Part shown: positions 5,873 to 9,794 of the stretch, one piece after another | Position numbering within the stretch: position 1 is the first letter of the stretch | Layout: each line of letters starts with the position of its first letter | Source: Synechococcus sp. CB0101 | Lineage (GTDB): Bacteria > Cyanobacteriota > Cyanobacteriia > PCC-6307 > Cyanobiaceae | Assembly: GCF_000179235.2 (NCBI RefSeq) | Contig: NZ_CP039373.1 | Coordinates: 558,032-622,031, forward strand | Reading direction: 5' to 3' | Length of the DNA stretch: 64,000 nt | Position numbers and translations under genes: made by a program | Notes under the pieces: generated by a model | The model's input: the letters and a program-made list of their open reading frames with translations, nothing else | The model's database searches: none | Told to the model about the DNA's origin: nothing

Positions 5873-7564
5873 ATGCTTCGCTCCGCCGCGATCACCCAGG
5901 GCATTCAGCGCTCCCCCAACCGCGCCATGCTTCGGGCGGTTGGTTTCGGTGACGGCGACTTCAGCAAGCCGATCATCGGCATCGCCAACGGCTACAGCAC
6001 GATCACGCCGTGCAACCTGGGCCTGAACGACCTGGCCCGCCGCGCCGAGGAGGCCGCCCATGCGGCCGGCGCGATGCCCCAGATGTTCGGCACGATCACG
6101 GTGAGTGATGGCATCTCGATGGGCACCGAGGGGATGAAGTACTCCCTGGTGAGCCGTGAGGTGATCGCCGATTCGATCGAAACCGCCGTCAACGGCCAGA
6201 GCATGGATGCTCTGCTGGCCATCGGCGGCTGCGACAAGAACATGCCCGGCGCCATGCTCGCCATGGCCCGCATGAACATCCCCTCGATCTTTGTGTACGG
6301 GGGCACGATCAAGCCGGGCAAGCTCGGCGCCTGCGATCTCACGGTGGTGAGCGCCTTTGAGGCGGTGGGTCAGTACAGCGGCGGCAAGATCGACGAGCAG
6401 GAGCTCACCGCGATCGAAAAGAACGCCTGCCCCGGCGCCGGCAGCTGCGGCGGCATGTTCACCGCCAACACGATGAGTGCTGCCTTCGAAACGATGGGCC
6501 TGAGCCTGCCCTACAGCTCCACGATGGCGGCCGAAGATCCCGAAAAAGCCGATAGCGCCGCCCGCAGCGCGGAGGTGCTGTCTGAGGCGATCAAGGCCAA
6601 CATCCTTCCCCGCGACCTGATGACCCGCGAGGCCTTTGAAAACGCCATCAGCGTGATCATGGCCGTGGGGGGCTCCACCAACTCGGTGCTGCACCTGCTC
6701 GCCGTGGCCCGCACCGCCGGCGTTGACCTCTCGATCGATGACTTCGAGACCATTCGCCAGCGGGTGCCTGTGATCTGCGATCTCAAGCCCAGCGGCCGCT
6801 ACGTGACCGTGGACCTGCATCAGGCCGGTGGCATCCCCCAGGTGATGAAGCTCCTGCTGGATGCCGGCCTGCTCCACGGCAACTGCCAAACGATCGAAGG
6901 CAAAACCCTCAAGCAGGTGCTCGCCGATGTGCCCTCAGTGCCCCCCGCTGGGCAAGACGTGATTCGCCCTCTGAGCAATCCGCTTTATGCCAAGGGCCAC
7001 CTGGCCATCCTCAAGGGCAACCTCGCTGAAGAAGGCGCCGTGGCCAAGATCAGCGGTGTGAAGAACCCGGTGATCACCGGCCCCGCGCGCGTGTTTGAAA
7101 GCGAGGAAACCTGCCTCGCCGCCATTCTCGACAAGCAGATCAACCCTGGCGACGTGGTGGTGGTGCGCCAAGAAGGCCCCGTTGGCGGCCCCGGCATGCG
7201 TGAAATGCTCAGCCCCACCGCCGCGATCGTGGGCCAGGGCCTTCTGGATTCCGTGGCGCTGATCACCGATGGCCGCTTCTCCGGAGGCTCCTTCGGTCTG
7301 GTGGTGGGTCATGTGGCACCGGAAGCCGCCGTGGGCGGCATGATCGGCCTGGTGGAAGAGGGCGACAGCATCACGGTGGATGCCAACCAACTGCTGATCC
7401 AGCTCAACGTGGAGGAGGCCGAGTTGGCCAAGCGCCGCGCCGCCTGGACCAGGCCCGAACCCCGCTACCGCACCGGTGTGCTCGGCAAATACGCCCGTTT
7501 GGTGAGCTCCAGCAGCAAGGGCGCCGTCACCGATCAGGCTGAACTCAGCGCCAACCATGATTAA
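5873..7564 (+). CDS. ilvD: Dihydroxy-acid dehydratase
   Basis: Iron-sulfur dehydratase of valine, leucine and isoleucine synthesis, converting dihydroxy acids to 2-keto acids. The 563 residues match the usual length. The cluster ligands are visible: Cys47 (STITPCNLG), Cys120 (GGCDKNMPG) and Cys192 (GAGSCGGMF). The C-terminal block [21 protein letters not shown] is diagnostic. Three such Cys are compatible with a [2Fe-2S] or [4Fe-4S] enzyme. The start at [14 protein letters not shown] is standard for cyanobacterial IlvD. The gene stands alone on the plus strand. Confidence 0.98.
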
Positions 7565-7584: not shown

Positions 7585-8667
7585 TTGGCCTACAGAAAGC
7601 GGTTTCTGCCAACAGTCGCGGGTTTAATACTCCTGGGTTTGGCGGCCCCAGGGCGGGCGCAGCCCATCACCGTGGGCGTGCCTGTGGGACTGGCACCTTG
7701 CTCGTTTCGTGAAAGCGGGAGCTGGTCCGGCTGGACCTATGACTTCTGGATCAAGGCGTCCGCCGACCTCGATATCGATCAAAAGATCAAGCCAATCCCA
7801 TCGTTGCGGGAGGGCATACGCCAACTGGCAAATCAAGAGATTGATGTATTGGCCACCTGCCTAACGGTGACGCCAGAGCGAACAGATCGGATTGACTTCT
7901 CAGCACCGATGAATGAGCGCGGGCTCAGGCTGCTGCAACGGAGAAAAACAGCAGGACCACTGAGCTTTTTAGCTTGGTTAGCGCGCAATCAGGCCTTTCT
8001 GATCTCGTTGTCGGCACTGATAGGACTCGCACTGACAGCAGCCACGCTACAGCCGATACTGGAACGTAAGCGCTGGAATTCGAGAGAATTTCTCCAGCAC
8101 ACAGGCATGGTGCTGATCGGCACGGGCTTGAACCTCTTAGGCCAGAAGCCCAAAACAGTTGTGATGTGGACGGCCATTGGCCTAATGCGCACAATTGTGA
8201 TCACGCTGTTCACCGCGAGTCTGACCAAAAGTCTGATCAACGATCAAGAATCAACTCGCGTAACCCTTCCATCCTTAAAAGAAACGACGTTCGCAACAAG
8301 CGACCGAATCGGAGTATTTGACGAAAGTGCGGCAATTAGCCTGCTCACCGCAACCAGCGACGCACTGGAAGAGCCATTCGGAAATCTCCGCAGATTCTCC
8401 AGCGAGGAAGATCTCGTCAATGCCCTTGCAAACAGAGAGATCGATTATGGATTAATCGATGAAGACCACGCAAAAGAGATAGAAAGAAAACCCATATACA
8501 GAAGCAGGGTAACGTTTGATGACGGTGAAGCAAGTTTCAAGCTTCCACAAAGCCTGGGACTCAGCAAGGGGTTACCAGATCAGCTCCGAGACAAGATCAA
8601 CCGAAGCATTATCAGCGAACGGATAACCCTGGAAGTCCAAAAGGCAATTGGCAGTCAACAGCCGTAA
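7585..8667 (+). CDS. GluR0-like ionotropic receptor: periplasmic binding domain split by a pore
   Basis: 360 residues from a TTG at 7585. The order matches prokaryotic glutamate receptors (S1-M1-P-M2-S2): signal peptide (1-25), first binding lobe (27-122) with CLTVTPERTDRIDFSAPM, where Arg99 matches the ligand-carboxylate arginine, helix M1 (about 136-156), a pore-loop-like segment (167-190), helix M2 (about 191-213) and the second lobe (220-355) with IDYGLIDED. The potassium-channel-like filter TVGYGD of GluR0 is replaced by LNLLGQ before the shared KPKT-type flank. It could be a non-selective channel or a non-conducting sensor. Base composition is far lower in G+C than ilvD (about 40% in 8461-8520), suggesting transfer. 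The start codon is uncertain. Confidence 0.82.
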   Translation: MAYRKRFLPTVAGLILLGLAAPGRAQPITVGVPVGLAPCSFRESGSWSGWTYDFWIKASADLDIDQKIKPIPSLREGIRQLANQEIDVLATCLTVTPERTDRIDFSAPMNERGLRLLQRRKTAGPLSFLAWLARNQAFLISLSALIGLALTAATLQPILERKRWNSREFLQHTGMVLIGTGLNLLGQKPKTVVMWTAIGLMRTIVITLFTASLTKSLINDQESTRVTLPSLKETTFATSDRIGVFDESAAISLLTATSDALEEPFGNLRRFSSEEDLVNALANREIDYGLIDEDHAKEIERKPIYRSRVTFDDGEASFKLPQSLGLSKGLPDQLRDKINRSIISERITLEVQKAIGSQQP

Positions 8668-8803: not shown

Positions 8804-9229
8804 CTAGTAGATGTCCACAGAAATCAACGAAGCACGTATCCGCCGGCAGAACGCCTCCAGCGGCGCTCCATCGGCGGGCCGCTCGCAGCGTTCGCCACTA
8901 GCCGGATGCATCCACACTGGATGGCTCCCGTGCCAGAGCATGGGGGCTTGTTCGTCGCGCACGCGACTGAGCATCAAGTTGAGATCGTCGCCGCTGCGGT
9001 AGATCTCCAATTCCAGATCGCACTGCTCCACGCGCACACCGTCGCAGTCGCGCGCTTCGATCAATAAAGCGCAATCGCTGCACTCACCAATGGTGGTGGG
9101 AGCCTCGCCACTGAACCGCAGGGCATGGCGATACGGCTTGAGGCAGAGATCGGCCGCCTTGGCCAGATCCACGAGAAAGATCTCGAAGGGATCGACTGGC
9201 TCGCCGGCATCAAAGGGGGAGAGATCCAT
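8804..9229 (-). CDS. Hypothetical protein, last gene of the gnd-pgl cluster
   Basis: 141 residues, acidic, soluble, with seven Cys including a CSDC pair (in TIGECSDCALL) and CDGVRVEQCDLELE. The N-terminal part (DPFEIFLVDLAKAADLCLKPYRHALRF) looks helical, the middle beta-rich. I do not recognise a family. It follows the CIA30 gene after 13 bases on the same strand, so it is probably the end of a gnd-pgl-CIA30 transcript. The Cys pattern hints at metal or redox binding, which is only inference. Confidence 0.72.
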   Translation of the reverse strand: MDLSPFDAGEPVDPFEIFLVDLAKAADLCLKPYRHALRFSGEAPTTIGECSDCALLIEARDCDGVRVEQCDLELEIYRSGDDLNLMLSRVRDEQAPMLWHGSHPVWMHPASGERCERPADGAPLEAFCRRIRASLISVDIY

Positions 9230-9242
9230 CAGCGCTCGCCTC

Positions 9243-9794
9243 TCACACCACAGCCCGGATGGAACGGATCAACAACTGCAGCTCGCCAGGCCGGAATCCA
9301 GGGTTACGGCCGCCCATGTCGCCGAATTTGGAATGGAGAATCTGCAGCCGCGTGACGCCTGCGGCATCAAACCGCACCGGTAAACCCACCGGGGTGGCAC
9401 GCACGCTGGGGGTGAGCCGATTGAACGGAATCACCACAACGGAAGTGCCGTTGGGACGCGTGGAAAATTCGGCGACCCAGCGAAGGCCTCCAGGGATCAG
9501 CTCGGTGAGACCGGCCAACCCATCGCGGCAAGCGATGGCGAGCTTGTAGCGGCGGCCGTCACCATCAACCGCGAGCTCGAGGGCTCCATAAGCGGAGAGA
9601 TCCAGAGGCGGATCAAACACCGGTGAACGGCAGCTCACGAACCCACCACCTTCGGGCTCCACAAAGGCCTGAAGCAACAGCCCCTCGCTGGTGGTCTGCA
9701 CAGCCCCCTGGCTGCGGCCACCCATGATCGTGTCGTTCAGGGCCTGCCAGCCGGCAAAGCCATCACCACTGGCGATCGGCTGGGGAACAAGCAT
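9243..9794 (-). CDS. CIA30-domain protein (complex I intermediate-associated family)
   Basis: 183 residues. The CIA30 signature is clear near the N-terminus (GWQALNDTIMGGRSQG), followed by the jelly-roll-like pattern ending LQILHSKFGDM...PFRPGELQL style (here NPGFRPGELQLLIRSI). In mitochondria the family assists NADH dehydrogenase assembly; in phototrophs related domains occur in NAD(P)H-linked or chaperone-like proteins. It lies 8 bases from pgl and 13 from the next hypothetical. A role in NDH-1 assembly is possible but rests on family name only. Confidence 0.85.
   Translation of the reverse strand: MLVPQPIASGDGFAGWQALNDTIMGGRSQGAVQTTSEGLLLQAFVEPEGGGFVSCRSPVFDPPLDLSAYGALELAVDGDGRRYKLAIACRDGLAGLTELIPGGLRWVAEFSTRPNGTSVVVIPFNRLTPSVRATPVGLPVRFDAAGVTRLQILHSKFGDMGGRNPGFRPGELQLLIRSIRAVV

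Follow-up and report, generated by a model that had tools for sequence, protein, structure and literature searches.

Prokaryotic ionotropic glutamate receptors (iGluRs) have been sorted, in the passages of Ger et al. (2010; PMC2950845) drawn on here, into a Group 1 with the K filter and a Group 2, defined by exclusion, whose P regions match no channel of known selectivity (22 proteins altogether), so that non-K prokaryotic receptors as such are already known, and some of the Group 1 entries are described there as annotated 'possible ligand gated channel'. GluR0 (Slr1257) of Synechocystis, to judge from the portion of PMC12226733 that treats it, retains an aspartate at the place equivalent to +4. 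On the eukaryotic side, sections of a review (PMC11479355) cite the argument that Q-to-R editing makes the iGluR pore slightly permeable to chloride, relate an acid at the cytosolic mouth of the pore to the cation versus anion selectivity of AMPA receptors, and treat anion permeation through plant GLR3.4 as plausible from an Arg in its filter. Few natural intermediates link a K-selective, GluR0-like ancestor to the glutamate receptors of animals and plants with their non-K pores.

Here I discuss a gene of Synechococcus sp. CB0101 that appears, from sequence comparison, to encode a GluR0-type receptor-channel subunit, most likely (at a probability of roughly 0.6) an amino-acid-gated channel that is not K-selective. 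The open reading frame at 7585-8667 (+) of the 64,000-nucleotide stretch that was analysed (the window) is confirmed as real, with 360 residues and a TTG start 20 bases past the ilvD stop; its parts and neighbours, in window coordinates, are as follows.

5873..7564 (+): ilvD, dihydroxy-acid dehydratase, upstream neighbour (Pfam ILVD_EDD)
7585..8667 (+): putative GluR0-like receptor-channel gene, 360 aa, stop included (ORF, Pfam; alignment and tree among relatives)
7585..7659 (+): signal peptide, residues 1-25 (hydropathy peak 7-25; presumed cleavage after GRA)
7663..7950 (+): first half (S1) of the binding domain, residues 27-122, containing Cys39, Cys92 and the ligand residue Arg99 (Pfam, alignment)
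7699..7701 (+): Cys39 codon (Cys in 51/52 of the non-K set defined below against 0/20 others)
7858..7860 (+): Cys92 codon (Cys in 52/52 of the set against 0/20 others)
7990..8064 (+): M1 helix, residues 136-160 (hydropathy 137-155; low-confidence model)
8080..8115 (+): predicted pore helix, residues 166-177 (low-confidence model; the equivalent in the model of the relative L069 is helix 187-200)
8116..8130 (+): probable filter-equivalent IGTGL, residues 178-182, GYG becoming GTG (alignment, spacing, profiles)
8128..8145 (+): LNLLGQ, residues 182-187, the filter of the first-pass annotation (immediately downstream of the GxG columns)
8158..8241 (+): M2 helix, residues 192-219, with the FTASLT motif at its end (hydropathy, model, alignment)
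8188..8190 (+): Arg202 in the M2 core (Arg at the column in 51/52 of the set against 0/20)
8242..8664 (+): second half (S2) of the binding domain, residues 220-360, containing Asp292 (family alignment)
8804..9229 (-): dn1, conserved protein without Pfam match, downstream neighbour (widespread, in 220/251 family genomes)
9243..9794 (-): CIA30-domain protein, second downstream neighbour (Pfam CIA30, E 3.9e-33)

With GluR0 and the K-filter proteins of Group 1 the CB0101 protein shares a signal peptide, the order S1-M1-P-M2-S2, the S1 Arg, the S2 Asp and an M2 motif of the FTAS type, whereas it lacks TVGYGD (having GTG with no acid after it), carries Arg202 in M2 and the pair Cys39/Cys92, and has Gln322 where K types have Tyr in 14/15. 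A non-K filter and the same part order are also features of Group 2, as far as the relevant passages of Ger et al. go, but the CB0101 protein is unlike the four Group 2-like cyanobacterial proteins of the present sample, whose pore loops read AT or GA, then QA or QV, then [DE]EMP, which are without GxG, Cys pair or M2 Arg, and which lie within the K set in the tree (Ger's ten Group 2 proteins being compared by description only). The eukaryotic iGluRs and plant GLRs (AMPA, NMDA, GLR3.4) likewise have a binding domain in two halves separated by a pore loop, whereas the CB0101 protein ends with S2 and is without M4 and without an amino-terminal domain, its hydropathy peaks lying at 7-25 (signal), 137-155 and 191-209 with none after M2. 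Unlike family-3 ABC binding proteins, finally, it has an interrupted domain: the 132 positions of Pfam SBP_bac_3 (residues 28-341, E 4.4e-14) are stretched over 314 residues with two helices inside, which is expected when an insert splits the domain, and the Lig_chan-Glu_bd match falls below its cut-off.

The order of signal, half lobe, helix, pore loop, helix and half lobe had been proposed in the first-pass annotation, and the split SBP_bac_3 match, hydropathy and alignment all agree with it; re-entry of the loop into the membrane, placed there at 167-190, is not contradicted and has been weakly tested, since it rests on a model with mean pLDDT 55.5, pTM 0.38 and residues 177-189 below 50. 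That low-confidence model has M1 at 136-160, a short helix at 166-177, a loop, and M2 at 192-219, and its geometry was set aside. As for the ligand site, TVTPER (residues 94-99) and DFSAPM (104-109) are kept just as had been read, and the alignment places ligand residues at Arg99 in S1 (present in 63/63 aligned proteins) and at Asp292 in S2 (present in both proteins of type C, described next). The site of the relatives' G-[TS] is occupied in the family alignment by E247-S248, and there is no specific support for glutamate being the ligand. Cys39 and Cys92 may form a disulphide.

Used as a probe, the CB0101 protein gave matches at E <=1e-3 in 103/251 genomes of its family, and a two-sequence profile built with L002 gave matches in 149/386 genomes of the phylum, many of the latter being short frames of soluble-binding-protein size. 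L002, from another genus of the family, is the sole close full-length relative (36% identity, same locus, IGSGI filter and Arg in M2, differing in a gene GC of 62.7% and a longer M1-filter linker), and this type is rare, with 2/400 family genomes and profile scores of 760 and 680 bits against at most 135 for the rest. Searches by peptide patterns found no close relatives in the genome contigs and viral contigs searched and one record (26%) among plasmids, and an alignment search of viral contigs for A-type proteins found none. By their pore loops the proteins of the tree are K type (TVGYGD; 15), Group 2-like (4), type A (31; mostly ATGPG[TS]N, one GEGD, one GSGD), type B (10; mostly GTGIYKMG) and type C (2; IGTGLN in CB0101, IGSGIH in L002), with SSGLYKMG in L004.

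The unrooted tree (63 proteins, 364 columns, LG+F+R4, 1000 ultrafast bootstraps; repeats L039-L047, L069, L070, L072 and L073 omitted) separates K plus Group 2-like from all others with support 100, so that the CB0101 protein is not grouped with K-filter proteins, and gives 100 to A, 100 to B, 100 to CB0101 with L002, and 99 to these two with L004. Companions of the CB0101 protein in the tree share the S1-M1-P-M2-S2 order, and soluble binding-protein NCBIfam models fall far below their cut-offs, both of which speak against placing it among non-channel SBP_bac_3 proteins. Types A, B and C as one clade were considered, and this is not what the unrooted tree shows: A, B+C and K+Group 2-like join at one internal branch system, and midpoint rooting places A beside K rather than beside B and C, so what holds the set together is its shared residues and not the tree. 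One type B protein (L074, 1240-2472) lies on a contig titled uncultured Opitutae bacterium, which is possibly mis-binned or a case of gene transfer.

The first-pass annotation had put the filter at LNLLGQ, a placement that is not confirmed. In the family alignment the GYG columns of the K-type relatives fall on G179-T180-G181, with flanks reading LIGTGL and with LNLLGQ downstream, and the spacing to M2 agrees: from the second filter Gly to the FTAS position there are 29 residues in the five non-K proteins counted (CB0101 included) and 28 in four others counted (three K type, one Group 2-like), whereas the earlier register, on G186, would leave 24. Profile-profile comparisons of K with A and of A with B+C back IGTGL; that of K with C, the latter a three-sequence set, yields the earlier register instead. 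With alignment and M2 spacing in agreement and one profile comparison dissenting, it is well supported, not certain, that the filter-equivalent would be IGTGL (178-182), about five residues upstream of LNLLGQ. The resemblance seen earlier between GQKPKT and what follows the filter in GluR0 is one of letters, and it is G186 that aligns with the Pro kept in 19/19 K and Group 2-like proteins.

What unites the non-K set (types A, B and C, and L004) was counted over 72 distinct proteins, one being kept per identical last 250 residues from 96: 52 of the set, 15 K type and 5 Group 2-like or similar (one from Agrobacterium), all found with the CB0101 protein or its profiles, so the proportions are not a census. 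GxG stands at the filter in 51/52 of the set; an acid at 182-183, after the filter, is present in 2/52 against 19/20 of the others; the M2 core (198-206) holds a basic residue in 52/52 against 0/20; and Gln322 is found in 52/52 against 0/20. The exceptions are L004, which has its Arg one residue later and no first Gly, and L071, whose partial locus lacks the Cys39 region. Almost every member belongs to the picocyanobacterial family of CB0101. Column 202 is Gly, Ser or Ala in K types, at a spacing that I take to be that of the gating-hinge glycine of KcsA. The filter change is, as aligned, common to a whole protein set, accompanied by an M2 basic residue that the first-pass annotation had not mentioned, and neither the set nor its M2 Arg is described in the parts of the open-licence literature covered (including PMC2950845, PMC12226733, PMC6385376 and PMC11479355).

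Structure prediction and distant profile matches point to the same fold. Models were built for the CB0101 protein and for L069 (type B, record title Cyanobium usitatum), each on seven sequences, and the latter (pLDDT 69.9, pTM 0.43) has the same part order, with helix 187-200 preceding M2. In Foldseek all 50 matches listed for L069 are iGluR chains (E 1.2e-12 to 6.8e-11, TM-score about 0.4), while for the CB0101 model the first four rows are kainate, delta and AMPA receptor chains, after which binding proteins are mixed in, at TM-scores of 0.17-0.26 and an rmsd of at least 18 over long alignments. VIA puts binding proteins at the top among the 50 matches listed for each model; those listed for L069 include the GluR0 binding cores 1ii5 and 2pyy (against 1ii5, Z 17.2, rmsd 4.0, 206 aligned) and no eukaryotic receptor, and those for the CB0101 model include two AMPA receptor chains. 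Plant GLR3.4 is matched by a 15-member family profile in one stretch from S1 through the membrane part to S2 (profile positions 78-373, E 1.2e-17), and a 16-member profile of the S1 end and membrane part runs through GLR3.4 (E 3.4e-7) and ends in M1 of NMDA receptors. The original proposal, a channel protein akin to glutamate receptors whose filter is altered and non-K, is thus supported by the Foldseek matches of L069 and the profile match to GLR3.4.

The gene lies at a locus that is shared more widely than the gene itself. In L002 the receptor gene stands at the same place (ilvD 90%, dn1 56% and CIA30 62% identical), but when the best 30 of the 220 genomes with dn1 were compared, one being CB0101 itself, ilvD and dn1 were close together in 29/29 other loci with the receptor gene between them in 0/29, the gap between aligned ends exceeding 250 bases in 7/29. 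No remnants of the receptor gene were recognised in eight ilvD-dn1 gaps (one of 75 bases) by permissive tblastn with seven family proteins and blastn with the window, the lowest tblastn E among the matches listed being 0.007, over 26 residues. Two of these loci (L076, 1054-1500; L082, 1038-1500) hold a reverse-strand frame in the gap, alike in both and judged unrelated by eye, and since a different small frame is found there, genes may be exchanged at this junction. GC is 52.7% (GC3 57.9%) in the receptor gene against 64.3% for the window, and GC3 is 71-85% in seven neighbouring frames; we infer a recent arrival by exchange at the shared ilvD-dn1 locus. A scan for promoters and terminators stayed at chance level, and the only Rfam match in the window is a cobalamin riboswitch (RF00174, 4082-4235, minus strand, 53.7 bits, above its gathering score).

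How, then, might such a protein work? K+ selectivity is very unlikely, because GTG has neither the Tyr of K filters nor the Asp that comes next in them and because Arg202 stands in M2, and the missing K filter together with the positive charge in M2, as in the relatives, makes non-K permeation or current-free signalling probable. The alternative drawn in the first-pass annotation, a channel of other selectivity or a silent receptor, survives as an idea, though the filter letters it was built on were probably wrong. As a non-K channel, which is the preferred reading, the protein would form a tetramer in the cytoplasmic membrane, its binding domains facing the periplasm, Arg99 and Asp292 would hold an amino acid or a similar ligand, the domain would close on it, and closure would pull M2 open in the manner of GluR0 and the eukaryotic receptors, so that, going by the fold, an inverted two-helix pore would open on ligand binding in the periplasmic two-lobed domain. 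The next choice is a silent or little-conducting receptor, whose domain would sense the ligand while the membrane part anchors or transmits, or else a gene drifting after transfer, and this I regard as possible although unlikely. It would suit a P-loop 40% and an S2 27% identical to those of L002, the one close relative (the pore not being the best-kept part of this pair, since S1 stands at 47%), an S2 that has drifted to E247-S248 in place of G-[TS], and an M1-filter linker of 24 residues against 32-36 in eight others counted; the low GC and the absence of the gene from 29/29 other loci fit as well, and the poor model, the P-loop figures, the linker and the GC all count against the channel reading. 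Yet the open frame, signal, both lobes and pore parts are intact, GTG, Arg202 and FTAS are kept, and the P-loops of A and B pairs are 63-84% identical, so the relatives' pore is probably working (P-loop/S1/S2: L003-L005 84/55/45%, L003-L006 63/40/34%, L010-L013 63/52/43%, L010-L021 63/59/45%, L015-L024 63/76/74%). The P-loop is better kept than either lobe in 4/5 of these pairs and in both K-type pairs (L048-L051 71/51/49%, L058-L066 55/49/30%), not in CB0101 and L002.

A ligand-gated anion channel is thinkable because the filter acid is lost and an M2 basic residue gained, and the passages of PMC11479355 on Q-to-R editing, the entry acid and the GLR3.4 filter Arg lend it some colour, as do the counts for the M2-core basic residue (52/52 against 0/20) and the acid at 182-183 (2/52 against 19/20). 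Doubt prevails all the same, for the mean net charge of the filter mouth (176-185) is 0.00 in K, -0.16 in A, +1.00 in B, 0.00 in C and -2.00 in Group 2-like proteins and does not separate the groups, the K-type Asp being followed by Lys or Arg. The weight of an anion-selecting pore consequently rests on Arg202, but its column, at the hinge-glycine spacing assumed above, need not face the lumen. To take the picocyanobacterial set, with CB0101 as an outlying member, for a third prokaryotic GluR group, without the Tyr and acidic ring and with the M2 Arg, acting as an amino-acid-gated anion channel, would be similarly improbable; should any member conduct anions, this would, to my knowledge, be a selectivity not yet seen in a native bacterial receptor with this fold. 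Far less credible, and already disfavoured, is a membrane-anchored binding protein of an ABC importer: the Pfam and NCBIfam domain names do come from such proteins, but the domain is split by M1-P-M2, no transporter gene is among the neighbours identified by Pfam, and TIGR01726 (the HEQRo-type amino-acid ABC permease, the usual partner of such binding proteins) finds nothing in the CB0101 genome while 11/14 control genomes are positive. The receptor is also the only SBP_bac_3 match found in this 2.79-Mb genome.

Whichever ion, if any, is carried, a set that combines GPG, GTG, GSG and GEG filters with a charged M2 offers many natural variants for selectivity measurement. Two type A members, L032 and L050, have GSGD and GEGD, which in letters come nearer to GYGD than the other filters of the non-K set. 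Outside cyanobacteria, plasmid pAt of Agrobacterium tumefaciens (L126, 1444-2493) encodes a protein resembling GluR0, annotated as a transporter substrate-binding protein, whose pore segment, SIATAGRATARKN, is non-K, with basic residues in the loop and none in the M2 core.
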